Below are positions 5,041 through 49,852 of a DNA stretch of 64,000 nucleotides, piece by piece (position 1 is the first letter of the stretch; each line of letters opens with the position of its first letter). The stretch comes from Candidatus Latescibacterota bacterium (GTDB lineage Bacteria > Latescibacterota > UBA2968): contig JAJEHL010000049.1 of assembly GCA_022823725.1 (NCBI GenBank), forward strand, positions 248,001 through 312,000, in the 5' to 3' direction. Made by a program: the position numbers and the translations under genes. The notes beneath the pieces were generated by a model that worked only from the letters and a program-made list of their open reading frames with translations, had not been told where the DNA came from and made no database searches.

Positions 5041-7017
5041 ATGGCCGAATTGAAAGCTATGGATCGGGATTTGCACCCGGAGAGCAAACATCTGAGCGTG
5101 ACCACACGCGCCTTTTGCGTGGGGATTGCGGTCGCGTTTCTGGTGAATTTGTTGCCCGCTTATTCGGCATATATCGTGCATTCGTCGCGTATGGTTTTTG
5201 CCCATTTGCCCATGGCGACTATGGTGGTTTTTACGGTGCTGGCGTGGCCGTTGAATGTTCTGATGGCGCGGGTAAAGCCGCAATGGGCACTGTCGCAGGG
5301 CGAGATGGTGGTGGTTTTTTCGATGGGGTGGATTGCAGGGGCTGTGCCTGCGGCGAATTTTATGGGTTTGTTTATCGGGGGGATTGCCGCGCCTTATTAT
5401 TATGCCTCGCCCGAGAATCAGTGGGGCGATTATTTGTTGGATGGGTTGCCCAAATGGGCCGCGCCGCCCAATGACGCCAGGCAGATGACGTATTTTTTTG
5501 AAGGCAAACCCCCTGGTGTTGGTATTCCCTGGGATGCGTGGATGACGCCGCTTGTGTGGTGGGGCGTTTTTCTAATTGCGCTGGCGCTGGTGAGTGTGGC
5601 GCTGATGGCCGTGTTGCGGCGGCAGTGGGTGGATCGAGAACGCCTGCCTTTTCCCTTAGCCGAAGCACCGCTGACGATGTTGGAGGAGGTTGAGGCAGGA
5701 AAATACAGGCTCCTGCATTCTCGCTTGTTCTGGGTTGGACTGACCATTCCCGTAGTTGTGGTGGTGTGGAATATCGTGGGTTATTTTTGGCACACATTTC
5801 CACCTATTCCGTTGATGGATAGATGGGCTTTGCCACTTGGACGCGGGTTTCCAAGTGTTACGATCAAATTGAATTTTTTTGTGCTGGGGTTCGCCTTTTT
5901 TACCAATCTCGATGTGTTGTTCAGTTTGTGGTTTTTTTACGCGCTGGGCATTGTGCAAACCGGTGTTTTTGACCGTCTGGGATATACTATTGGCGCGTCT
6001 GATATTTGGGGGTCCCGCGGTGGTGCGGCATTGGGCTGGCAGGCGATGGGGGCTTTTTTTGCTTTTACGGCGTTGAGTATGTGGATGGCGCGCGCGCATT
6101 TGCAGGATGTGTGGCGCAAGGCGATGCGCGGCGATGATGCCGTGGATGATTCGGGTGAGTTGTTGTCTTATCGGGCGGCGGTGTGGGGTATTATTGTGGG
6201 ATCGGCGTTTCTCTTTTTCTGGCTGTGGCACTCGGGCATGTCCGCTCTGGTGGCTGGTGTTTTTCTTTTTGCGCTGATTTTGATGACGGTGGGTGTGACG
6301 CGGTTTGTGGCCGAGTCGGGATTGGCTTATGCGCGGATGCCTATTACGCCGCAGAGTTTTACTTTTTATACGATTGGTATTCGGCAGATGGATACCAATA
6401 GTGCCGCGTCTCTGGCGCTGTCTTATTCGACGTTTGGCCTGGGCAATACTTTCGGTGCTTCTACGCTGGCACATATTGCACAGATGGGCGCGAGGCTCAA
6501 GCTCAAGACCCGTTCGCTATTCTGGACAACGATGTGCGCTCTGGTGGTGTCGATGATTATTTCGGCGGTGTTCACGCTGTACCTGGGTTACATGTATGGC
6601 GCGTACAATTTTAATGTTTATACGTTTAATTCCGGGAATGTGGTGATTTTTAGCAATGTGGTGAAAAAATTGCAAAATCCCTTTGGCATCAGTCTGGATA
6701 GGCTGATGTTTTTTGGTATTGGTGCGGCTCTCACTGCTGTGTGTGGTTTTTTGCGCTATCGGTTTTTGCGGTGGCCGTTGAGTCCCATTGGGTTGACTGT
6801 GTTTACAACGGGTATTTTGCAGCGGCAGGTGTTTACGGTTTTTGTAGCGTGGATGGTTAAATCCGTTTTGTTAAAAATTGGCGGTATTGGGCTTTATCGG
6901 CAATCTCTGCCTTTGTTTATGGGGCTGATGCTCGGTTATGTTCTCGGTATTGGATTGATTTTTATTGTGGATGTGTTGTTTTTCTTTGGGCAAGGGCATC
7001 TGGTGCATCATTGGTGA
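5041..7017 (+). CDS. Polytopic membrane protein, DUF6785-like (copy 1)
   Basis: 658 aa, hydrophobic through most of its length with a dozen or more likely membrane segments and a short cytosolic N terminus. Blocks shared with three paralogues in this window (29151, 53015, 62891) are: YYASPENQW (about residue 121), FFEGKPPGVGIPW (about 152), LRRQWVDRERLPFPLAE (about 191), NLDVLFSLWFFY (about 288), a VAESGLAYARMPITPQ block in the second half and a C-terminal LYRQSLPLFMGLMLGY. I believe this is the family called DUF6785 (with DUF6784), whose function is unknown; the fold suggests a transporter or a membrane scaffold. ATG at 5041 with a weak GAGAG site. The symporter gene follows after a repeat-bearing gap. 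Confidence 0.75.
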   Translation: MAELKAMDRDLHPESKHLSVTTRAFCVGIAVAFLVNLLPAYSAYIVHSSRMVFAHLPMATMVVFTVLAWPLNVLMARVKPQWALSQGEMVVVFSMGWIAGAVPAANFMGLFIGGIAAPYYYASPENQWGDYLLDGLPKWAAPPNDARQMTYFFEGKPPGVGIPWDAWMTPLVWWGVFLIALALVSVALMAVLRRQWVDRERLPFPLAEAPLTMLEEVEAGKYRLLHSRLFWVGLTIPVVVVVWNIVGYFWHTFPPIPLMDRWALPLGRGFPSVTIKLNFFVLGFAFFTNLDVLFSLWFFYALGIVQTGVFDRLGYTIGASDIWGSRGGAALGWQAMGAFFAFTALSMWMARAHLQDVWRKAMRGDDAVDDSGELLSYRAAVWGIIVGSAFLFFWLWHSGMSALVAGVFLFALILMTVGVTRFVAESGLAYARMPITPQSFTFYTIGIRQMDTNSAASLALSYSTFGLGNTFGASTLAHIAQMGARLKLKTRSLFWTTMCALVVSMIISAVFTLYLGYMYGAYNFNVYTFNSGNVVIFSNVVKKLQNPFGISLDRLMFFGIGAALTAVCGFLRYRFLRWPLSPIGLTVFTTGILQRQVFTVFVAWMVKSVLLKIGGIGLYRQSLPLFMGLMLGYVLGIGLIFIVDVLFFFGQGHLVHHW

Positions 7018-9948: not shown

Positions 9949-10695
9949 ATGCAGATGACCAAAGCTCAAAAGCAGCAGTTTTTCGAAGAAGGATATGTGC
10001 TTGTGCGCGGTGCTGTGCCAAAGTTGATGGCCGATCAGGCGCGCAAGGCTATTAATCGGCATATGCGTTATCGCGTGATGCAACAGGGGCGAAATCCGGG
10101 TTTGAGCAGCGAGCCGGTGATTACGGATTTGTTTAATAAATCGCCGTTATGGGGTCTGTGCGAGTCGGTTGTGGGAGAGGGGAAGTTGATCCCACAGCAA
10201 GGGGGGAACGTGAAGCTCAATTTTCCCGATGCAGAGGAGCGTCCACTGACGCGAGGGCATCTGGATTTGGGTGGGAAGTTGAAGGATGGGTTGCTGAGTC
10301 GTGGTATGACGCTGCTGGTGGTGGTTCTGGTCCACGATGTTCCGCGACCCTATATGGGCAATTTCTGTTTTTGGCCCGGATCGCATCGCGCTTATGAGGC
10401 GGCGTTTCAAAAGGATCCCAATTACGTGGAGACGGCAAAAGCCAATCGCCGGATTCCCAATATCGATTTGCCGCATGGGCCGATTCAGTTTATGGGCGAG
10501 GCTGGCGATGCGGTGATTTGTCATCACCAGATGTATCACAATGGAGGACCAAATCATTCGCCCGATATCCGCTATGCCGTGATTTTCAGACCCCGACACG
10601 TCAATGCCCGAGAAAATAGTACGGATGCTATGGCCGATATCTGGCGCGAGTTTGATGGGTTGACGGATCTGAAGGAAGAGGAGATGGCGGTTTAG
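9949..10695 (+). CDS. Phytanoyl-CoA dioxygenase (PhyH) family Fe(II)/2-oxoglutarate oxygenase
   Basis: 248 aa, cytosolic. The double-stranded beta-helix fold is recognisable by FFEEGYVLVRGAV at the N terminus, the metal pair H104-x-D106 in TRGHLDLGG, FWPGSHRAY, and the distal His with a 2-oxoglutarate-binding Arg in HQMYHNGGPNHSPDIRYAV. All ligands are therefore canonical, unlike the double-domain paralogues at 16976 and 19861. Members hydroxylate diverse small molecules; the substrate is unknown. ATG at 9949 follows AAAGGAGATTCCC. It is the last gene before the terminator at 10721. Confidence 0.88.
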   Translation: MQMTKAQKQQFFEEGYVLVRGAVPKLMADQARKAINRHMRYRVMQQGRNPGLSSEPVITDLFNKSPLWGLCESVVGEGKLIPQQGGNVKLNFPDAEERPLTRGHLDLGGKLKDGLLSRGMTLLVVVLVHDVPRPYMGNFCFWPGSHRAYEAAFQKDPNYVETAKANRRIPNIDLPHGPIQFMGEAGDAVICHHQMYHNGGPNHSPDIRYAVIFRPRHVNARENSTDAMADIWREFDGLTDLKEEEMAV

Positions 10696-16975: not shown

Positions 16976-18715
16976 ATGGACCGGGAAGAGATGAGCAATG
17001 AAGAGAATTATGCGTTTGATGTCGCCGGATATTTACATGTTCCGGGGGTGTTGAGTCGTGGGGAAGTTGAAGCTTTGAACAGGGCACTGGACGAGGCGGG
17101 TGGGTCTGAAGGCATGCTGGGCTGGGAGGCGCCCCAGCGGGATCTGTTTCGGGATTTGCTGGTGCATCCGCAACTGGTGTGGTATTTGAACCAGATTGTC
17201 GGACATGGATTCCGACTGGATCAGGCGCCCCGATTGTTGGGGTGCCGGGAGGGGGAGGTCGGGCAGGGTCTGGTTGGTGGAGATGAGCCTCGGAATCCAT
17301 CCCGGGCTTATTTTATTCAAAATGGTCGCCGGTCGTGCCAGGGGGTGAAGGCGATCTGGGTGCTGGAGGATGTGGAGGAGGGAGATGGCGGGCTGGTGGT
17401 GGTTCAGGCGAGTCACAAGAGCAATGTGGAAACGCCCGAGGATCTGGCGACCGGGCAGGACGATATGGGGCTGGTGAAACAGCCTGTGCTGAAGGCGGGC
17501 GATTTATTTTTACTGGCCGAGACTGCGTTGCAGGGGATGCGCCCATGGACGGGTTCACCGAGACGGCTGTTGACGTACTGGTATGCGGGACGAGCGGTCA
17601 TTCAGTCGAATGGGTCGGGACCGGGTGCTGAGATCGAAACGCGACCCGGGTGGACGGAGAGTGCGCCTCCCGAACAGAAGGCGGTAATGTACAGGCCGGG
17701 GGCTAAGGGATCTAATCCGCCGCCTGTGCTGAATACCGATGGCGAAAAGACGTGGGTGGAGGAGAGTTCTGAGGTGATTCATCCTTCGATTTATATTCGG
17801 GATCCAAATTCGACTATTGATGAGAAGGAATTTTATTTTTGGGATTTGAACGGGTATCTGGTGGTGCGCGGGGTGATGGACGAGGAATGGCTGGAAAAGG
17901 CGAATGAGGCGGTGGATAAATTCCAGGATCGGATTGAGGTTGGTTCAGAACTGGCGCGAGGGTCGAAGAGTCAGGCCGGAACGGGGCGGCCGTTATTGCC
18001 GGGGCTGGTGGATTTGCCCGCGCCTTATTGCGATCCGTTCCGGCGCATGATTGCACATCCCGCTGTGGTACATCGGCTAAATTGGATGGGAGCCAGCGGG
18101 TATCGCACGGGCGGTGGTACGGTGTTTTGCGCTGTGCAAGGGACGTCTGGCCACGCGTTGCACGATGGGAATGAGCCGATGAGTCCGTCGCGGGGCTACC
18201 AGTTTAAGAATGGGCGGAGTTATTGCGAGACGGTGACGATTACGTGGCAGTTGCGGGATGTGGAGCCGGACCTGGGTGGGTTTGCCTGTGTGCCGGGTTC
18301 TCATAAGACGCAGTATTCAATGCCTCCTGGAATCCGCACCTGCGACGAGACGATGGGGCTGGTGGTGCAGCCAGCGATGAAAGCGGGCGATGTGTTGTTT
18401 TTTATGGATGGCGGGTGTACACACGGCGCGCTGGCGTGGAAAAATCCGATTCCCAGACGGGGTGTGCTGGTTAAATATCAATCCAAAAATTCCAACTGGG
18501 GCGGTGGCGTAATCGATCCCCAGGAGCGCTGGGGCGATATGGTCGAAGATATGACTGAGGAACAGTTTGCTGTTATGCGCGGTCCGGAACGCGATGGACG
18601 GGATCGCACGGTGCCCAGGTTGGCCGTGCACGATGGGCAGGTGCATGTGTCGTACGATCCAGAGGGGGATAAGTATGCGGCTTCTTATCGCAAGCCGGGA
18701 GAAAAGTCGGGATAG
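16976..18715 (+). CDS. Double-domain PhyH-like protein A (degenerate N-terminal domain)
   Basis: 579 aa made of two homologous PhyH-type domains, about residues 8-215 and 281-500. In the C-terminal domain the proximal iron site reads H396-D397-G398 (ALHDGNEP), the distal His is H483 (CTHGALAW), and PIPRRG supplies the Arg. In the N-terminal domain the aligned positions are V100-G101-G102 and Q186 (ALQGMRPW), so all metal ligands are lost. The Asp of canonical H-x-D is Gly even in the C-terminal domain. Shared blocks GYxFxNGR, WxLxDV and GSHK confirm the homology. Likely a cytosolic oxygenase with a structural or regulatory N-terminal half; substrate unknown. ATG at 16976 with AAAGGAGGTCAGAG. 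Paralogue B is at 19861. Confidence 0.85.
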   Translation: MDREEMSNEENYAFDVAGYLHVPGVLSRGEVEALNRALDEAGGSEGMLGWEAPQRDLFRDLLVHPQLVWYLNQIVGHGFRLDQAPRLLGCREGEVGQGLVGGDEPRNPSRAYFIQNGRRSCQGVKAIWVLEDVEEGDGGLVVVQASHKSNVETPEDLATGQDDMGLVKQPVLKAGDLFLLAETALQGMRPWTGSPRRLLTYWYAGRAVIQSNGSGPGAEIETRPGWTESAPPEQKAVMYRPGAKGSNPPPVLNTDGEKTWVEESSEVIHPSIYIRDPNSTIDEKEFYFWDLNGYLVVRGVMDEEWLEKANEAVDKFQDRIEVGSELARGSKSQAGTGRPLLPGLVDLPAPYCDPFRRMIAHPAVVHRLNWMGASGYRTGGGTVFCAVQGTSGHALHDGNEPMSPSRGYQFKNGRSYCETVTITWQLRDVEPDLGGFACVPGSHKTQYSMPPGIRTCDETMGLVVQPAMKAGDVLFFMDGGCTHGALAWKNPIPRRGVLVKYQSKNSNWGGGVIDPQERWGDMVEDMTEEQFAVMRGPERDGRDRTVPRLAVHDGQVHVSYDPEGDKYAASYRKPGEKSG

Positions 18716-18819: not shown

Positions 18820-19725
18820 TTAGCTATTCGGGAGCAGGCCGATCTGATCCAGAGACGCGCGGAGAAATTCCAGATCTTCTTCAGTGGCAGAGAGTTGGGG
18901 TGATCTGAGATATCGGGCGGAGACGCCGTAGAGTTCCAGGATGGCGCGCCACATGGTTTGCCAGCCGCCTCGAAAATTGGGCTGCAGATCCCAGAGCGGG
19001 CGTTCGATTTCGACGGTGATCCGCCGCGCTTCGGCTATGTCGTTGCGGCAGAGAGCCTGGTGGAATTCCGCGCCGATGTGGGGGGCGAATGAGGTGGACC
19101 AGTCCATGAAGGTGGTGCAGCCAAAGGGCCATTCGAGGAGGTGACGCCACAGGGTGCCTCCGGTCATGATTTTCCAGTGGTGGCCGTATTTTTGCAGGGT
19201 TTCTACGGCATAGGCCGTGTCGCCGTCTTCTTTAAAACAGCAGATGCCGGGTTCGTCTATGAGCATATCCAGTGCGCGATGCGAGGGATAGCCGACGAGC
19301 ATCACCGGGATGATTTTGCCGATTGCGGCATTGTGGGCGGCAACGCCTTCGGGGTCTGAGGCGTGGAATGTGGTGACGGACATGAGCGCATCTGCGCCCC
19401 ATTCGACACATTTGTGGGCAAATGCTTCTGCTTGTCGGGTGGGCCAGGCTCCGGTCGCGGCGATGGTGAGGGCGCGGCCAGCGGTGCGCTCGATGGTGAA
19501 TTGTGTGAGTTGTGCGATTTCGTCTTCGCTCAGGCAGAAGTACTGGCTGTCACCCGCTGTTAGCAAGATGACGCCACTGCCGCCTCCAATGCCGGTTTCG
19601 ATGATGTTGTCCACGCCATCCCAGTTGATGTCTCCATTTGATAGAAAAGGCGTCGGTATTGATGTGACAGGACCTTTTAGGAGGTTTTTTATTTCGTCGG
19701 GCGATTTTCGCGTTCGTGTGGTCAT
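18820..19725 (-). CDS. Dihydrodipicolinate-synthase-like (DapA/NAL superfamily) lyase
   Basis: 301 aa TIM-barrel lyase. It opens with GPVTSIPTPFLSNGDINWDG, matching the DapA start. The Schiff-base Lys is K165 (ICCFKEDGD) and the catalytic Tyr is probably Y146 (VGYPSH). The usual GTTGE loop is replaced by AGDSQ, and the Tyr-Lys spacing is 19 residues instead of about 28, so this is a divergent group that should act on another 2-oxo acid rather than make dihydrodipicolinate. ATG at 19725 with AAGGAG upstream. It is divergent from PhyH gene B across a 135-bp gap and probably catabolic. Confidence 0.82.
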   Translation of the reverse strand: MTTRTRKSPDEIKNLLKGPVTSIPTPFLSNGDINWDGVDNIIETGIGGGSGVILLTAGDSQYFCLSEDEIAQLTQFTIERTAGRALTIAATGAWPTRQAEAFAHKCVEWGADALMSVTTFHASDPEGVAAHNAAIGKIIPVMLVGYPSHRALDMLIDEPGICCFKEDGDTAYAVETLQKYGHHWKIMTGGTLWRHLLEWPFGCTTFMDWSTSFAPHIGAEFHQALCRNDIAEARRITVEIERPLWDLQPNFRGGWQTMWRAILELYGVSARYLRSPQLSATEEDLEFLRASLDQIGLLPNS

Positions 19726-19860: not shown

Positions 19861-21630
19861 ATGGACCGGGAAGCGATGAGCAACGAGGAGAATTACAGCT
19901 TTGATGTGGCAGGCTATTTGCACATCCCGGGCGTGTTGAACCGAGGTGAGGTGAAGGCGCTGAATGAGGCGCTGGACAAAGGGGGACAGAGTGAGGGGAT
20001 GCTGAGATGGGATTCCCCACTTCGGGATCTGTTTCGGGATTTGATGATTCATCCACAATTGGTGTGGTATTTGAATCAGATCGTGGGCTATGGGTTCCGG
20101 CTGGACCGGGAGCCAGAGTTGTTGTGCGATGAGACCTGGGATGTGGAGGCACCCCTGGTGGGAGGCAATGAGCCAAGAAATCCGGCCCGGGCGTACTATT
20201 TTCAGAATGGGCGCCGGTATTGCCAGGCAGTGCGGGCGATCTGGGCGCTTGAGGATGTGGAAGAAGGCGATGGTGGATTTGTGATGGTGCCGTGTACTCA
20301 CAAGGTGAATGTGGAGACGCCAGAGGACGTGGCTACGGGTGAGGACGATATGGGTCTGACGTTCCAGCCGGAGCTAAAGGCCGGGGATCTGTTTCTGGTG
20401 GCGGGGACGGTGTTGCAGGGGGTGCGGCCGTGGCAGGGCAAAGGGCCACGGCGATTGTTGAGCTACGAGTATGTGGGGCGGGCGGCGATTCAGTCTGCGG
20501 GGACGGGTCCCATGGTTGCGGAGGATCCTTCTCCTGAATGGCATGCGGCGATTAGCCCCGAACAGCGCGCGTCGCTTTACAAACCGGATTATGCGTATTC
20601 GACGCCTCCGCCGGTGATTGTGACGGATGGCGAGACAGTAAAACTCGATGAATCGCGGGAGGTGTTTCATCCCTCGATTTACAGTCGGGATCCCAATTCT
20701 AATATCGATGAAAAAGAGTTCTATTTTTGGGAATTGAACGGGTATTTGATTCTCAAAGGGGTGATGGATGCGGCGTGGTTGGAGAAGGCAAATGAGGCGA
20801 TTGACAAGTTTGAGGACCAGATTGTGGTGCAGGAGGAATTGTCGCGGGGGTCAAAGAGCCTGGCGGGTACGGGGCGTCCGGTATTGGGCGGTTTGCTGGA
20901 TCTTCCCGAGCCGTATTGCGAGCCGTTTCGGAAGATGGTGGCTCACCCGCCCGTGCAACACAGGTTGACGTGGATGGGCGGGAGCGGCGCGCGAATGAGT
21001 GGACCGTCGGCGTTTTGCTCGGTTCAAGGAACGTCTGGCCCTGCCCTGCACGATTCTGGAGAACCGATGTATCCGCCGATGGGCTATCAGTTTCAGAATG
21101 GGCGGAGCTATTCGGAGGCGGTGACGATTACGTGGCAGTTGCGGGATGTGCCGCCGGGTCTTGGCGGGTTTGCCTGTGTTCCGGGTTCTCACAAGGGGAA
21201 ATACCCAACGCCGCTGGGCGTGCGGTCCTGCGATGATGATATGGGTCTGGTGAAGCAGTTGGTGATGGATGCGGGGGATGTGCTATTTTTTGCCGATGGC
21301 GCGACGACGCACGGCACCACTGCGTGGAAGAATCCCATCCCGCGGCGGGGTATTTTGATCAAATACTCGTCGCGGAGTTTTCACCGCAGCGGCGGGGAGA
21401 TGGCGCATCCGTGGAACCGTTGGGGTGACGACATGGTGGAGGGTATGACGGACGCACATTTGGCCGTGATGCGCGGCACGGATCGGGATGCGCGCGATTA
21501 CAATGTGCCCCGGCTGGAAGTGAAGGATGGCGAGGTGGAGGTGTCCTACGAGCGGGGGCAGGCGCTTTATAGTGGCGAGGCGCCAACGACGCCGGTGGTC
21601 GAACAGATGCGAAATAGAACAGACCGTTAG
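19861..21630 (+). CDS. Double-domain PhyH-like protein B (degenerate N-terminal domain)
   Basis: 589 aa, paralogue of protein A at 16976 along its whole length. The C-terminal domain keeps H397-D398-S399 (ALHDSGEP), the distal H484 (TTHGTTAW) and PIPRRG; the N-terminal domain has V100 and Q186 at the ligand positions, exactly the same losses as in A. The N-terminal domain decayed before the duplication yet has stayed intact as an open frame in both copies, which argues that it does something. The start at 19861 has GGAGGTCACCG upstream and the same MDRE-MSNEENY opening. The stop overlaps by 4 bp the stop of the convergent PhyH gene at 21627. Confidence 0.85.
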   Translation: MDREAMSNEENYSFDVAGYLHIPGVLNRGEVKALNEALDKGGQSEGMLRWDSPLRDLFRDLMIHPQLVWYLNQIVGYGFRLDREPELLCDETWDVEAPLVGGNEPRNPARAYYFQNGRRYCQAVRAIWALEDVEEGDGGFVMVPCTHKVNVETPEDVATGEDDMGLTFQPELKAGDLFLVAGTVLQGVRPWQGKGPRRLLSYEYVGRAAIQSAGTGPMVAEDPSPEWHAAISPEQRASLYKPDYAYSTPPPVIVTDGETVKLDESREVFHPSIYSRDPNSNIDEKEFYFWELNGYLILKGVMDAAWLEKANEAIDKFEDQIVVQEELSRGSKSLAGTGRPVLGGLLDLPEPYCEPFRKMVAHPPVQHRLTWMGGSGARMSGPSAFCSVQGTSGPALHDSGEPMYPPMGYQFQNGRSYSEAVTITWQLRDVPPGLGGFACVPGSHKGKYPTPLGVRSCDDDMGLVKQLVMDAGDVLFFADGATTHGTTAWKNPIPRRGILIKYSSRSFHRSGGEMAHPWNRWGDDMVEGMTDAHLAVMRGTDRDARDYNVPRLEVKDGEVEVSYERGQALYSGEAPTTPVVEQMRNRTDR

Positions 21631-22445
21631 ACGGTTCTGTTATCCAGCGAGTACTCGCGGTTTCCATTTGGACCGCCGCCGATTGCCCAGGTGCCGCGGA
21701 AGAGGGTCCGCCGCCTTGGGGGCATGGCTTCGATTGTTTCGTGGTCGAGGTTGAGGCGGTGCCACTGTGCCCAGATGGAGTTGTAGCAGTTGAAGACCGC
21801 GCATCTCGGGTTGTTCGGGTTGATCCAGTCGTTGGCAGCGTGGATCAGGCTTTCCGTGAAGATGACCACCGAGCCTGCGGGACAGCTATAATCTTCCATT
21901 GCGTCTCTCATACTGGATTCATAGGGGGAGCCGCCGATATTTGGCCGAAACCGATCCGGGCCGCCGTAATTGAAGTGGGCTTTGTGCGACCCGCTGAGAA
22001 AAGAGGTTCCGCCCTGTCCCGACACTACTTCCTCGAGTTCCCACACGACCCGGGTCAGCCCGGCAAAAATTTTATTTCCCGCGACCTGATAGCGCATGGC
22101 GTTGGCTTGTTGGGGGGGACGCACGACGTGGGGCATGCCGTTGTCTCTCCGTTCCGATTTGTCCCATCCGGGAGGCCGCACGGTGGTGAAGGAGCCTTCG
22201 CAGCGGAAGCCGTAGCAATCGTCTTTTACAAAGGGGTCTTCGGATAGGATTTCGTTTAGAATGCCGACGATTGCCGGATGGTCCAGCAGGTTCTGAAGCG
22301 GACCTTCATAACTCCGCCTGGCACCGGCATATACTTCGGCTTTCATCTCTTCTATCTCGGCTGTCGATAGCACAGAGGGTAGCAGGATCCAGCCGCGAAG
22401 GTCGAAGAAGAATTTTTGCTCGTCGGTCATAGGTATGGGTGTCAT
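21627..22445 (-). CDS. PhyH family protein with non-canonical iron site
   Basis: 272 aa, single domain, cytosolic. It starts with TDEQKFFFDLRGWILLPSVL. Aligning the WELEEV and GSHKAHF blocks with the double-domain proteins puts H106-V107-V108 at the proximal site and H202 (SLIHAANDW) at the distal one, with Arg in NPRCAVF. The usual carboxylate is again absent. ATG at 22445 has a strong AAAGGAGG 5 nt upstream, and the ATG overlaps the TGA of the Gfo/Idh/MocA gene (22442-22445), so translation is coupled. Confidence 0.82.
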   Translation of the reverse strand: MTPIPMTDEQKFFFDLRGWILLPSVLSTAEIEEMKAEVYAGARRSYEGPLQNLLDHPAIVGILNEILSEDPFVKDDCYGFRCEGSFTTVRPPGWDKSERRDNGMPHVVRPPQQANAMRYQVAGNKIFAGLTRVVWELEEVVSGQGGTSFLSGSHKAHFNYGGPDRFRPNIGGSPYESSMRDAMEDYSCPAGSVVIFTESLIHAANDWINPNNPRCAVFNCYNSIWAQWHRLNLDHETIEAMPPRRRTLFRGTWAIGGGPNGNREYSLDNRTV

Positions 22446-23698
22446 TTTTCCTCCTTTGGTCCATTGAGACGAACGGTTTCGCCTCCCTGGTCGATAGATT
22501 GCATTGCGGATAGGATCATTCGCGTGGCTTCCATGCCGTATTGGCCATCTACTGGGGATGGACCGCCGCGGGCAAATTTGGCAATTTCCTGCACCAGCTT
22601 GCGGTCTGCACCGAAGTGAGAGGTTTCAAAGGCTTCGGCTTTGCATTGTATGAGTTCTTCTCTGCGTTCCCCATAGTCCGTGACGAGGTCGATTTCGCCC
22701 TTCAGGCGCGTCAGGATCATTCGCCCTTTTGTGCCGACCAGTTCAAAGGTTTCTTCGTCTTCGGCTTTGGGACCGTAAATGGCGTAGAAGATGGAGGCGA
22801 CGATTCCGTTGTCGTACTGGAAGTGGATGGATGCGTGGTCGAAGATGTCTGCGCCGGGTTTATATACGCAATTGTCTTTTCGGCGCATGGGATCGGTTTC
22901 ATTGGCGAAGGTCTGATCTATTGCGCCTCGTGCCTGATCCTGTGTGCCCGTTTCGACCAACTCCGCTCGATAAGGACAAGTGTCGTCGTCGCAGACGGCA
23001 CAAAATTCGGGCGCGTCTTCGCGCACTTCAAAGAGGTTGCGTCCCCCAAAGGCGTTGACCTGAAGACAATGGTCGTTCGCAAACCAGTTGAATACGTCTG
23101 TGTAGTGCGATGCCTTGTCGTTGAGCGCACCGCCGCTCAATGACCGCGTGCGGTGCCAGGTCATAAAATAATGCGTGTAGGGGATTACGGAGCGAATGAG
23201 CATCATTTTGAGGTCGCCGATGACGCCGCTTTTCAGCAGGTTGTAGAGTTCGATCCAGGGCTGTTCATAGCGCCTGGTAAATCCCATGATCATCGGATTA
23301 TTTGTTTTGTGCTCTTCTTTTTGAATGGCTATGGCATCTTCGAGCGTATGTGCAATGGGCTTGTCCAGATAGACTTTTTTGCCCGAGCACAACGCGGGTA
23401 TTGCCGCTTCGCGATGGGCTGCCGTGGGCGTGGTGATGACAATTAGATCTACGTTGTCGTCGGCGATCAGGGCTGTTGGGTCGCTGTAGAATGCGGGTGA
23501 AAACGTCTTGTTGCCCGCTGCCGCCGCGATTCTGTTCACATCTTCGAGGGCGATGTGCATGCGGCTTTCTGTGCGGTTGCAAAAAGCGGTGATTGTGATG
23601 TCCAGATCGCTGGCTTGTTCGGCAATTTGATGGCCAATACAGTTGATGCCGCGGCTGCCAGTTCCGATGATGCCCACGCGAATGGTATTTGTAGTCAC
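22442..23698 (-). CDS. Gfo/Idh/MocA family oxidoreductase
   Basis: 418 aa from the GTG at 23698, which has CGGAG 9 nt upstream and is followed at once by the Rossmann strand IRVGIIGTGSRGINC. The frame is open to 23845, but that extension has no clear site and no family similarity. The DKP form of the EKP motif (VYLDKPIAHT) is at about residue 100. A Cys-bearing insertion (FCAVCDDDTCPYRAEL) near residue 245 could bind a metal. It is translationally coupled to the PhyH gene downstream, and the pair is divergent from the PHP-domain gene at 23831. An oxidation pathway shared by the two enzymes is inferred. Confidence 0.85.
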   Translation of the reverse strand: MTTNTIRVGIIGTGSRGINCIGHQIAEQASDLDITITAFCNRTESRMHIALEDVNRIAAAAGNKTFSPAFYSDPTALIADDNVDLIVITTPTAAHREAAIPALCSGKKVYLDKPIAHTLEDAIAIQKEEHKTNNPMIMGFTRRYEQPWIELYNLLKSGVIGDLKMMLIRSVIPYTHYFMTWHRTRSLSGGALNDKASHYTDVFNWFANDHCLQVNAFGGRNLFEVREDAPEFCAVCDDDTCPYRAELVETGTQDQARGAIDQTFANETDPMRRKDNCVYKPGADIFDHASIHFQYDNGIVASIFYAIYGPKAEDEETFELVGTKGRMILTRLKGEIDLVTDYGERREELIQCKAEAFETSHFGADRKLVQEIAKFARGGPSPVDGQYGMEATRMILSAMQSIDQGGETVRLNGPKEEK

Positions 23699-23830
23699 TG
23701 TTGGTTTCTCCGGGAAAATGCAGGTTGTATCAGAGTTCTTGTGAAGAATATACCAATTATTCCCGAAAATAAAAGTCATCTTGAGACCCTCGGGATGATT
23801 CCGAGGCGTTTTACGAGAGGATTGCGGAGT

Positions 23831-26101
23831 ATGGAGCGTTTGCAAATTCGATTGTCAGAGCATCGCCGCGGGCATGTGGATAAAGACCCGGCGCTGACTG
23901 TAGATGGTTCTGACCGGTTCTGGGTGGCCTGGCACGGGTATAGGCCCAAAGAAGACCGGATTCTGGTGCGGTCTTTTAAAGGGCAGGAGCGAGGTCCTTT
24001 GCTACTGGTGAGCGAAGAGGAGGGGATCAATTTTCAGCCGCGGATTGCGTGCGGAGGCGATGCGGTGTGGGTGGTGTGGTGCGCTGTGCGGGAGGGACGG
24101 TGGTGCGTGCTGGCCAGATCGGTAGGCGAGATGGGTGAGGTGGTGCGATTGGCCGAGTCGGATGCGAGTCTGGCTTTTCCAAATGTGACTTCGGATGGTG
24201 AGGGCAGAATATGGGCGGTCTGGACAGCGCTGGTGGGTAGAAGGCGGCGGGTATTTGGGCGATGTCTGGATGGGGATCGCTGGGCTGAGGTTGTGGATCT
24301 GTCGCATGGGGCAGGAGAACACTATCGGCCCGTGCTGTGCGGACATGCCGGGGGTGCCTGGGTGGCTTACCAGACGCTCCAGAATGGGAAATGTGATCTG
24401 TTTTTGAGAAAGTGGACGCCAGATGGGGTGGGACAACCAGAGAAGTTCTCGCTTACAGATGACTGGGAGTTATTCCCGAGGTTGTGTCCCGATGGTTCGG
24501 GCGGGGTCTGGGCGACGTGGGCGGTCACGCGCGATGTGATCCATCCCAAGGGATTTGTAGATCACAAAGTGGAGGCGATGGCTTCGCATTTTGACGGCCG
24601 GTCCTGGACTCCCTATAGGGGACCGGATCGCACTATGCCCGAAGGGTATGTGGCGCATCTCTACGATGGATTGCTGGGGCGCGAGCATTATATGGGGTTT
24701 GTGGGGTGGCGTCGTCGTCCGCAGATTGTGCGGGAAACAGATGGGGATGTCTGGGTTCTTTATGAACGCAAAGAGGACGAGTTGGTCAACCGGCACGGTC
24801 CGGATGCGCTGTTTTACGCTCGGTCCCTGACCGGGAGAAATCAGGGGTGGTCCTGCGAGGTAGATGGGGAGGTACATGCCTATACGGTGAACGGAGATTT
24901 GCCGGTGGTGGATGGAAATCTGCCATTTGCCGCCCAGATTTCCGAGGGGCGATATTATGCGGATATCTGTGCCGGGTATTTGCCGCTGGATCGGGCGCAG
25001 CCCGTGGAGGAACGCCCGGTCTCGGCCTGGCGATCATGGCGGCCGATTCAACTGCCCGAACCGCCTGTGTTTGATCAACGGCCTGAAATAGTGGTGGGGG
25101 GAAAGACCTATAAACTTTACTGGGGAGACCTCCATTGCCACGGCAATCTGTCGGGTGATGCAGAGGGCGAGATCGACGAGAATTACGCGTATGGGCGCTA
25201 CAAAGCACGGCTGGATTTTATGGCGGTGACGGATAATGATGCGCTTTACGATAATATTCTCACGCCATCAGAGCTCGAGTTGATCCTGGCGGAGGCTGAT
25301 CACTTTGACGATCCGGGACGATTTGTGGCCGTCCCCGCCTATGAACGCACCTATCGCAAAGAATCGGAGCGCGGACCGAACCATCGGATTATGCTTTTTC
25401 CGGACGGGGCAGTGCCGCTGTATCATTTTACCGAGTCCGATGCGGATACACTGGAGAAGTGGGTGGCAGCGATGGAAAAGACGCGGGCTTTTACATTTCC
25501 GCACCATCCCACCTGGTGGGTGATTCCGAGCAGTCGGCTCGGGGGGGTGGAACTGTGTTCGTGCTGGGATATTTACATTCAGATGCGGGATACGATTCCA
25601 GAAGCACTGCGGCAGGGCTATCGCCTGGCGTTTATGGGAAATAGCGATTCCCATCGGATTGTGCCCGGGATGGGCGGTGCTCTGACGGGTGTGTGGGCAG
25701 AGGCGTTGACCCGAGAGGCGCTATTTGAAGCTCTGTGGGCACGGCGGTGTTTTGCCACCAACGGCGCTCGTGTTATGCTGGATGTGCGGGTGAACGATAT
25801 GCCCATGGGATCGGAGGTGAGGGTGACAGGACAGGTACACTTAATTTGCAGGGTGCAGGCGTCCCGAATGGTGCAGCAGGTCGCGCTGTTCAGAGATGGA
25901 GAGCAGGTGCTGGCGCAATGGGTTGGAAAGCAACAGGCGGTTTTGCAGTTTGAGGACGAGCCAGGCCCTGGAGAACATTTTTATTATGTAGAAATTAGAC
26001 TAAAGCCGCTTCGCCGGGTGCCGATGGGTGGGCGCTGTGGAAATTTGCAGGTGGCACAGGGCGATTTTGTATGGTCGAGTCCAATCTGGATTAAAAGGTA
26101 G
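23831..26101 (+). CDS. Beta-propeller plus PHP-domain protein
   Basis: 756 aa from the ATG at 23831 (AGAGG 10 nt upstream); a longer open frame would run into the divergent gene. Residues 1-260 hold at least five propeller-like repeats of about 50 aa with the pattern G-x-x-x-W-V-x-W and a following Arg strand (for example GGDAVWVVWCAVREGRW). From residue 431 a PHP-type metallohydrolase begins, WGDLHCHGNLSGDAEGEI, with H435 and H437, then FMAVTDND, PHHPTWW and GNSDSH as further metal-ligand blocks. It resembles DUF3604/CehA-like proteins. No signal peptide is visible. It may cleave a phosphoester or similar bond; the substrate is unknown. Confidence 0.8.
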   Translation: MERLQIRLSEHRRGHVDKDPALTVDGSDRFWVAWHGYRPKEDRILVRSFKGQERGPLLLVSEEEGINFQPRIACGGDAVWVVWCAVREGRWCVLARSVGEMGEVVRLAESDASLAFPNVTSDGEGRIWAVWTALVGRRRRVFGRCLDGDRWAEVVDLSHGAGEHYRPVLCGHAGGAWVAYQTLQNGKCDLFLRKWTPDGVGQPEKFSLTDDWELFPRLCPDGSGGVWATWAVTRDVIHPKGFVDHKVEAMASHFDGRSWTPYRGPDRTMPEGYVAHLYDGLLGREHYMGFVGWRRRPQIVRETDGDVWVLYERKEDELVNRHGPDALFYARSLTGRNQGWSCEVDGEVHAYTVNGDLPVVDGNLPFAAQISEGRYYADICAGYLPLDRAQPVEERPVSAWRSWRPIQLPEPPVFDQRPEIVVGGKTYKLYWGDLHCHGNLSGDAEGEIDENYAYGRYKARLDFMAVTDNDALYDNILTPSELELILAEADHFDDPGRFVAVPAYERTYRKESERGPNHRIMLFPDGAVPLYHFTESDADTLEKWVAAMEKTRAFTFPHHPTWWVIPSSRLGGVELCSCWDIYIQMRDTIPEALRQGYRLAFMGNSDSHRIVPGMGGALTGVWAEALTREALFEALWARRCFATNGARVMLDVRVNDMPMGSEVRVTGQVHLICRVQASRMVQQVALFRDGEQVLAQWVGKQQAVLQFEDEPGPGEHFYYVEIRLKPLRRVPMGGRCGNLQVAQGDFVWSSPIWIKR

Positions 26102-26107
26102 GTTTTT

Positions 26108-26884
26108 ATGACTCTCAGGCCCGATCAAATCCGGGATTACCACGCAGACGGTTTTACCATTGTAGAGGGACTCATTCCGCCGGGGCTTCTCAAAGATATC
26201 GCCGAACACCTGGATCGCGCTGCGCTCGGGCAACTCGATTCCGGGATTGCCGTGCAGGTCGAACCCGAGGTCCAGCGCCTGGATATTCGTCCCGAGAACC
26301 CCTTGAACCGCATCCGCAAAGTCAGCCGCGTTGTCCGGCACGATTCCTTCTTTCGATCTGTGGCTACCTGTGAATCCATTCTGTCGTGTATGCGGGATAT
26401 TCTGGGCGATAATCTGCGCTTTTTTGGCGACGAAGCCCAGCTCAAACCCGCTTTCTACGGATCTGCTCACGCCTGGCATCAGGACGCGCCCTATTTTTAT
26501 TCCATACCTCTTCCGGTTGCTACTGTCTGGATCGCTGTAGATGAGGCGACTCCCGAAAACGGCTGTCTTCAAGTTGTGCCCGGCTTGCACCGGCAGGGCA
26601 TTTTGAAACGCCCCAATTCGGACCAACCCTGGTTTGACGAGGGAGAATTTGACAGTACCGATGCCGTGCCCGTTGTTCTGAATGCCGGCGATGCCCTTTT
26701 TTTTCACCTGTGCTTGCCCCACGGCTCTGGTCCCAATACGTCTCCTAACCGGCGTCGTTCCCTGATCTATCGCTATATCAACGTGGATCGCATTACTACG
26801 GATATGATTTCGCTTGTGGAGCGTCACGGCTGTCTCTCAAACGCATCCGATAGTCATCCCATTTTCAGGATGGCAATTCCGTAA
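26108..26884 (+). CDS. PhyH family Fe(II)/2-oxoglutarate oxygenase, canonical site
   Basis: 258 aa. DYHADGFTIVEGLIPP at the N terminus, the metal pair H124-x-D126 in HAWHQDAPYF, CLQVVPGLHRQG, and a distal HGSGPNTSPNRRRSL with His and Arg: a complete site similar to ectoine-hydroxylase-like members. The + strand here is C-rich, against the G-rich + strand on either side, and the C-rich run continues to about 26940; the segment was probably inverted or imported recently. ATG at 26108, 7 bp after the PHP gene. Confidence 0.87.
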   Translation: MTLRPDQIRDYHADGFTIVEGLIPPGLLKDIAEHLDRAALGQLDSGIAVQVEPEVQRLDIRPENPLNRIRKVSRVVRHDSFFRSVATCESILSCMRDILGDNLRFFGDEAQLKPAFYGSAHAWHQDAPYFYSIPLPVATVWIAVDEATPENGCLQVVPGLHRQGILKRPNSDQPWFDEGEFDSTDAVPVVLNAGDALFFHLCLPHGSGPNTSPNRRRSLIYRYINVDRITTDMISLVERHGCLSNASDSHPIFRMAIP

Positions 26885-48964: not shown

Positions 48965-49852
48965 ATGCTATTTACCGATGCACAAATGAGGCAATACGAT
49001 GAGGAGGGGGCTGTTACGATCGACAGTCCCTTCACGACCGAGGAACTGGATCGCGCCGAAGCGGCCTGGGACAGGTTGAAGGCGAGTGGTCGTCCGCCTT
49101 ATGAAGATCCAGATTATGTCGATGTTGTCCAGCATCCCTATTTGGAGGAGGTCGCCAGGAAGGTGTTGCGGGCTGAGTCCGTACATCTGTGGTGGGGGTT
49201 GTCCCCTCACGAGCGAGTGCCGAGTAGCGCACCTTTTGCGAGTGTTCGCGAGCAATGGGGGAATGGATGCCACGTCGATATCCAGGCGACATGGGAGGAT
49301 TTTCAGGCGACGCCACGTCGGATGCGCGCTGAGTTGTGGCTCTGGGTCAATGACGTGCCCGAGCATCGGGGAGCTATGCGCATTTTGCCAGGTAGTCATC
49401 GTCCGATTATGGAACACTGGAGCCGGGTTTTGACGCCAGAGCATAAGGCGATGTTGCCTCGCGTCCATGGGTTGCGTCCCGAACCGCCAGATACTGCGCC
49501 GGCTTATCCCGAGCATGTGCCCGAGTTGGTCGATACGCCCTGGCTGGAACAGGAGCCGGTTGCGGCTGTTGCGCGTCGAGGTCAGATTTTGATTTTGTGC
49601 AGCGGGGGCTTGCATTCCGCATGGCAGAACGAGGATACGGTGCCCCGCAAGGCGATGCTGACGGCATGGATCGCTACGGGCGTGTCCTGCGGATTGCCGA
49701 AGAGTCAGCGCGATGGCGTGATGGCGTTTTTCCCGAGGCTACGAGAGAAGTTGCGTCCCGAGCGCGCGCATATTGTGCCCGAGAATTTCGACTGGTTGTT
49801 CGAGAGCGATTATGAGCCGAAATGGCCCGAGACTTTTTTGGACGCTATTTAG
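48965..49852 (+). CDS. PhyH family Fe(II)/2-oxoglutarate oxygenase, canonical site
   Basis: 295 aa. MRQYDEEGAVTIDSPFTTEE at the N terminus, the metal pair H103-x-D105 in GNGCHVDIQATW, an AMRILPGSHRPIME block, and a distal GGLHSAWQNEDTVPRKA with His and Arg. Complete site. It starts with a strong AAAAGGAGG 5 nt before the ATG. It lies 15 bp ahead of the octaheme cytochrome gene, so it may be read with that operon, although it has no export signal and acts in the cytosol. The substrate is unknown. Confidence 0.87.
   Translation: MLFTDAQMRQYDEEGAVTIDSPFTTEELDRAEAAWDRLKASGRPPYEDPDYVDVVQHPYLEEVARKVLRAESVHLWWGLSPHERVPSSAPFASVREQWGNGCHVDIQATWEDFQATPRRMRAELWLWVNDVPEHRGAMRILPGSHRPIMEHWSRVLTPEHKAMLPRVHGLRPEPPDTAPAYPEHVPELVDTPWLEQEPVAAVARRGQILILCSGGLHSAWQNEDTVPRKAMLTAWIATGVSCGLPKSQRDGVMAFFPRLREKLRPERAHIVPENFDWLFESDYEPKWPETFLDAI

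Follow-up and report, generated by a model that had tools for sequence, protein, structure and literature searches.

PhyH proteins at the locus

The window, by which we mean the whole stretch of 64,000 nucleotides that was analysed, encodes three PhyH proteins that lack a carboxylate in the third position of the H-x-D motif (Table 1). Two of them, A and B, carry two PhyH domains in tandem, and the third is a single-domain protein that we name 21627 after its first coordinate. All three pass the curated cut-off of PF05721 (22 bits), with 70.1, 73.3 and 27.8 bits, and the three contrast proteins of the window also belong to PF05721. The initial annotation had described this division, and its residues and numbering proved exact: H396-D-G in A, H397-D-S in B and H106-V-V in the 21627 protein, against H-x-D in the proteins at 9949, 26108 and 48965, which read HLD, HQD and HVD. 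The H-D-G and H-D-S motifs sit in the C-terminal domains of A and B. An automatic HMM/MAFFT placement took R-R-D of the 21627 protein for its H-x-D, which is wrong according to the alignment of its own family.

Table 1. Features of the locus, in positions of the window
Feature	Positions	Strand
Contrast PhyH protein, H-L-D	9949..10695	+
Double PhyH protein A (579 aa); C-domain with H396-D-G398, D478, H483, Arg494	16976..18715	+
N-terminal PhyH domain of A, lacking metal ligands (V-G-G, distal Gln), probable pseudo-oxygenase	16976..17821	+
A, H396-D397-G398	18161..18169	+
A, D478 (putative compensating carboxylate) through distal His H483	18407..18424	+
DHDPS / 5-dehydro-4-deoxyglucarate dehydratase-like gene between A and B; synteny only in close relatives	18820..19725	-
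Double PhyH protein B (589 aa); C-domain with H397-D-S399, D479, H484, Arg495	19861..21630	+
N-terminal PhyH domain of B, lacking metal ligands (V100-G-G, Q186), probable pseudo-oxygenase	19861..20709	+
B, H397-D398-S399	21049..21057	+
B, D479 (putative compensating carboxylate) through distal His H484	21295..21312	+
21627 protein, single-domain HygX-clade PhyH, 272 aa; H106-V-V108, E198, H202, Arg214	21627..22445	-
21627 protein, H106-V107-V108	22122..22130	-
21627 protein, E198 (putative compensating carboxylate) through distal His H202	21840..21854	-
Gfo/Idh/MocA-type sugar/inositol dehydrogenase; overlaps the 21627 gene by 4 bp; neighbourhood at genus level only	22442..23845	-
Contrast PhyH protein, H-Q-D; best PDB match EvdO2	26108..26884	+
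Contrast PhyH protein, H-V-D	48965..49852	+

The 21627 gene has a convergent 4-bp overlap with B, and on its upstream side it shares the 4 bp ATGA with the dehydrogenase gene. Neighbouring genes encode a sulfatase, ThuA, Gfo/Idh/MocA dehydrogenases, a KdgD-like dehydratase and a LacI regulator, a setting that suggests sugar catabolism. A larger part of the window (3946-45216) looks sugar-catabolic, with a sulfatase, ThuA, RraA, an aldo/keto reductase, an SSF symporter, a LacI regulator and a TonB plug receptor, and two DUF6785/DUF6784 proteins lie at 5041 and 29151. The order of A, the DHDPS-like gene, B, 21627 and the Gfo gene is kept in close relatives only (it is genus-specific), and thus tells little about function.

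The host is a Latescibacterota bacterium of the sponge type, whose genome of 5.34 Mb contains 154 matches to PF05721, an extreme expansion of paralogues. Relatives of B at 95-97% identity come from Candidatus Latescibacterota MAGs, and more distant ones carry the names Latescibacterota, Poribacteria or Gemmatimonadota. The double-domain protein was found in 46 of the 64 searched genomes of the phylum, as were relatives of the 21627 protein. PHROGs gave no match, and the plasmid collection contained few homologues.

Membership of the HygX clade

We aligned 156 PhyH domains, comprising the listed PhyH loci of the host genome and HygX. Among the domains with both His, 118 are H-x-D and 30, HygX included, have another residue in the third position (22 G, 4 S, 2 N, one A and one L); in five N-terminal domains the distal His is replaced by Gln. 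A single clade, with a support of 95, unites HygX with the domains of A, B and the 21627 protein; it holds the 30 HxG domains, the five ligand-less N-terminal domains and one domain with H-A-D. When the host genome was searched by profile, 37 domains of the clade were retrieved, with a sharp gap past E = 2e-37: 31 active-type domains without the Asp, one with H-A-D and the five N-domains that have no ligands. Of the 31, two lie outside the PF05721 list and show the same acid pattern. The clade is very diverse, with identity to B going down to about 21%, and its third position varies freely between G, S, N, A, V and L. Hence, A, B and the 21627 protein group with HygX, rather than with H-x-D PhyH proteins or halogenases.

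The closeness to HygX was also found with structures. A profile of the HxG domains matched HygX best in the PDB (4xcb, 9.8e-26), followed by EctD (5e-18) and SyrB2 (3e-11). HygX was the top Foldseek match of the modelled C-domain of B (pLDDT 84.9), and occupied ranks 1-16 when the full-length model (pLDDT 81.8) was used. Its sequence reads H-G-G ... N-E-A-L-M-H, in which the Glu is residue 202 by the numbering of 4xc9 and 205 by that of 4xcb. The titles of its PDB entries name forms with iron, nickel, 2OG and hygromycin B, which indicates that an H-x-G member binds metal and 2OG.

The missing Asp is a fixed trait of these families, the result of neither decay nor chance. In the C-domain of 98 distinct double proteins, the first His, the distal His and the Arg are present in every sequence, and the third position is G (51), A (21), S (15) or N (11), never Asp or Glu. 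The 30 orthologues of the 21627 protein all have the first His, V-V, the Glu, the distal His and the Arg. Such invariance of His, His and Arg, combined with a third position that is never acidic in the double proteins and is always H-V-V in the orthologues of 21627, is far beyond chance.

Other PhyH proteins depart from the H-x-D motif in different ways. One member of the HygX clade (L065:8219-8995, minus strand; C45:221603) has H-A-D as well as an acid before the distal His, and could be an intermediate or a reversion. A PhyH-like protein of about 259 aa (L007, minus strand) has H-T-H in the place of H-x-D, possibly a three-His metal site, and another PhyH protein (L052; C35:246194-246919, minus strand) reads H-R-E, with Glu replacing Asp as the third ligand.

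The acid before the distal His

The column four to five residues before the distal His is acidic in all 30 HxG domains (29 from the host genome and HygX), against 6 of the 118 HxD domains. The p value of this association (Fisher, 9.5e-26) ignores kinship, and is not phylogenetically independent because nearly all HxG cases form one clade. This is the sole fully acidic column, all others being at most 73% acidic. The motif appears, for example, as F-F-T-E-A-L-T-H or F-F-M-D-G-G-C-T-H, and its spacing is E198-x3-H202 in the 21627 protein, while A and B have one extra residue, which places their Asp at -5. The acid is present in the C-domain of each of the 98 double proteins (96 D and 2 E). A plain count over a wider set gave an acid at -4/-5 in 144 of 145 Asp-less domains and 37 of 149 HxD domains, the latter showing that this loop can carry an acid for other purposes too. 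The sole exception among the former is an H-S-G domain (L122), an interrupted reading frame match on a short contig.

The pattern extends beyond the phylum. HygX and its orthologue in Streptomyces SAT1 combine HGG with NEALMH, and the Cupriavidus homologues combine HHG with SEALAH and HHE with SEALVH. The latter, a close HygX-like pair on Cupriavidus necator plasmids (L254 and L255), thus differ in the third position (H-H-G and H-H-E), and both have the Glu before the distal His. By parsimony within the clade, the letter of the third ligand changed 10 times and neighbouring columns 11-14 times, against two changes of the acid, which were only between E and D and never to a non-acid. A phylogenetic pair test had only 2-3 independent changes, too few for power, since H-x-G amounts to one clade and one isolated case; the association between acid and H-x-G does not therefore represent many independent events. 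There is also a tandem pair of sister genes of the H-x-D type (C34; L047:1453-2199, plus strand, and the PhyH gene directly downstream; support 96), with H-R-D..S in one and H-A-G with Asp at -4 in the other. It is a possible independent loss of the Asp ligand, though an ambiguous one, as the H-A-G gene has a Glu at +3 and its sister an Asp at -5.

The initial annotation had advised looking for a nearby Asp or Glu that could take over from the lost ligand, and had named the Asp at +1 and the Glu at +4. There is indeed such an acid, but it is a different one. Position +1 is D, S, G, N or V across the family (Asp in 80 of the 98 double proteins), and the Glu at +4 is conserved in the double-domain subfamily only. 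In the predicted structure of the C-domain of B, D479 lies where one strand ends and a loop begins, and the strand after that loop starts with H484. In this fold, such a loop is found where the barrel holds its metal.

The N-terminal domains of A, B and their relatives are a natural internal control for the constraint on the acid. In the 98 double proteins they have lost both His (V-G-G ... Q, with the distal Gln in 91 of 98), and the acid is found in 21 of 91, being otherwise replaced by L, G, V, A or S, whereas the Gly, the Ser-His-Lys (SHK) and the Tyr are retained. These domains branch inside the same clade as the active C-domains and are conserved, with 44 positions conserved in at least 98% of sequences against 39 in the C-domain. 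The joint loss of constraint on His and acid indicates that the constraint on the acid follows the metal ligands. A salt bridge between the acid and the conserved Lys of GSHK is disfavoured, because the Lys is kept in N-domains without the acid. In the simplest reading, the N-domain is probably a non-catalytic partner, or pseudo-oxygenase, fused to the active domain. As far as we checked, a fused ligand-less PhyH domain is an undescribed architecture.

The vacant iron site and known systems

Our results suggest that the three proteins are Fe(II)/2OG oxygenases of the HygX clade, in which the vacant site is controlled by a displaced carboxylate, and not halogenases; we regard this as the likely explanation. 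The iron would be held by two His (H397 and H484 in B) and 2OG bound by the conserved Arg that follows the second His. The usual Asp site, receiving no side chain from the third position, would be filled by a water or directly by the acid, with D478 in A, D479 in B and E198 in the 21627 protein as the candidate controlling carboxylates. The reaction may be a hydroxylation, or an oxidative cyclisation or dealkylation, of a C-H substrate. HygX and the weak gene context lead us to guess at sugar- or cyclitol-like substrates for the three proteins. In A and B, the active C-domain would work fused to its non-catalytic N-domain, comparable to TlxI.

The most instructive precedent is AspH, a two-His enzyme which reads H679-x-G ... 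D721-x3-H725 and has a water (W1) in the usual ligand site, bound by the second-sphere D721; activity drops strongly in the D721A variant, and this water is believed to impede the binding of (pseudo)halide (PMC13168262). If the solution is AspH-like, with an Asp that holds a water and hinders halide, the three proteins should oxidise and not halogenate. The presence of the acid in nearly every member of the clade also makes oxygenases, rather than halogenases, the most likely function. Taken together, the precedent of AspH, the Ser of SyrB2 and CytC3 and the predicted position of the loop make it very probable that the acid controls the vacant iron site, via a water or directly.

How the acid acts could differ from this precedent. 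It might itself be the third iron ligand, in a permuted 2-His-1-carboxylate triad, which is a sub-case of the same explanation and still gives an oxygenase. Such a triad would fit an acid that is strict, exchanges only between E and D and was lost along with the His in the N-domains, and Glu, which prevails in single-domain members, exceeds the Asp of AspH by one carbon and could reach the metal. Yet the Asp of AspH has the same spacing and is a second-sphere residue, not a ligand, and 12 of the 31 clade members, A and B included, use Asp, which has a shorter reach, so we hold direct ligation only tentatively. Alternatively, the enzymes could be strictly 2-His oxygenases with an ordinary water in the third site, where the acid serves substrate binding or folding only. 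Two-His and even one-His forms of AspH do turn over (PMC8252765), but this reading seems unlikely for an acid that is invariant across a very diverse clade and lost exactly where the His are lost, while its potential partner, the conserved Lys, stays in N-domains without it. Degenerate PhyH proteins devoid of metal and catalysis are probably an apt description of the ligand-free N-domains of A and B. The idea is barely credible for the C-domains or the 21627 protein, given that none of their sequences (98 and 30) departs from the two His, the 2OG Arg and the acid and that their relative HygX was deposited with iron and 2OG.

The initial annotation had left a choice between halogenases and proteins with another ligand or another radical chemistry. 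The evidence favours the latter part, since HygX (H-G-G) is an Fe/2OG oxygenase and its clade carries the acid. For halogenases or pseudohalogenases, the loss of Asp would open a halide site as in SyrB2 and WelO5, and the proteins would chlorinate, brominate or azidate. The two His and H-x-G/A fit the motif of halogenases, and the habitats of relatives, marine sponges and seawater, are rich in halide. This function is nevertheless very improbable: the clade is that of HygX and not SyrB2, its nearly universal acid stands where SyrB2 and CytC3 (H-Q-A) have Ser at -4, the halide position is Val or Leu in some members (Val, not Gly or Ala, in the 21627 group), and in AspH the water held by an acid of equal spacing is believed to impede (pseudo)halide binding (PMC13168262). 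Gly or Ala in the third position with no acid before the distal His, the combination seen in SyrB2 and CytC3, is not that of the three proteins and their families, where the acid is nearly universal. In addition, TIGR01762 (SyrB2-type chlorinating enzyme) had no match over its curated cut-off in the host genome or in three relatives.

These observations matter for genome mining, where H-x-G/A usually serves to flag 2OG halogenases: about 30 proteins of the host genome would be false positives. Oxygenases and halogenases appear to be separable by the acid that precedes the distal His by four to five residues. If the permuted triad were true, the rule would be that H-x-G with an acid at -4/-5 denotes an oxygenase and H-x-G/A without it a halogenase. 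It is conceivable, though doubtful, that there is a large and little-recognised class of 2OG oxygenases with such a triad, which this rule would separate from halogenases genome-wide.

Among known systems, HygX of Streptomyces hygroscopicus (PDB 4XC9, 4XCA, 4XCB, 4ZPI) is the closest, sharing H-G-G, the Glu at -4 of the distal His, GSHK, the 2OG Arg and the clade. It differs in being a single-domain protein of an antibiotic cluster (the aminoglycoside hygromycin B), with about 16-24% identity to the proteins described here, which belong to the genome of a Latescibacterota bacterium that encodes some 30 paralogues as well as double-domain forms. Its own reaction is an orthoester-forming oxidation of a saccharide. 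The HygX paper (PNAS 2015) reportedly mentions variation in metal coordination in its abstract, and part of the ligand variation may thus have been described already for HygX. A role in orthosomycin-type oxidation is cited for it in PMC8234114. SyrB2 and CytC3, halogenases of the PhyH superfamily, also lack a carboxylate in the third position (H-Q-A), but have Ser instead of the acid before the distal His and a much weaker profile match.

AspH, the human aspartate/asparagine beta-hydroxylase, resembles the clade in having H-x-G and an Asp at -4 of the distal His, and is a hydroxylase, not a halogenase. Yet, it belongs to a separate family of 2OG oxygenases with protein substrates, and its likeness to the HygX clade is drawn from the literature, not from a homology test. 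The common spacing suggests a repeated solution to the loss of the iron-binding Asp. The N-domains recall the TlxI/TlxJ heterodimer (PDB 7VBQ, PMC12141560), where a cofactor-deficient PhyH-like partner supports the catalytic one. In that fungal meroterpenoid pathway the partners are two separate proteins and TlxI lacks the 2OG Arg, whereas in A and B the partner is fused in the same chain and lacks both His. Finally, the expansion of PhyH in Poribacteria (Kamke et al. 2014, PMC3909097) similarly involves many diverse PhyH genes in sponge-associated bacteria, and an H-x-D PhyH-like protein of Poribacteria demethylates 2'-O-methyl nucleosides (PMC12709175), another chemistry in the superfamily. 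Metal ligands are no topic in the relevant passages on the poribacterial expansion, whereas the Asp-less portion of the expansion in Latescibacterota is resolved here as the clade of HygX.
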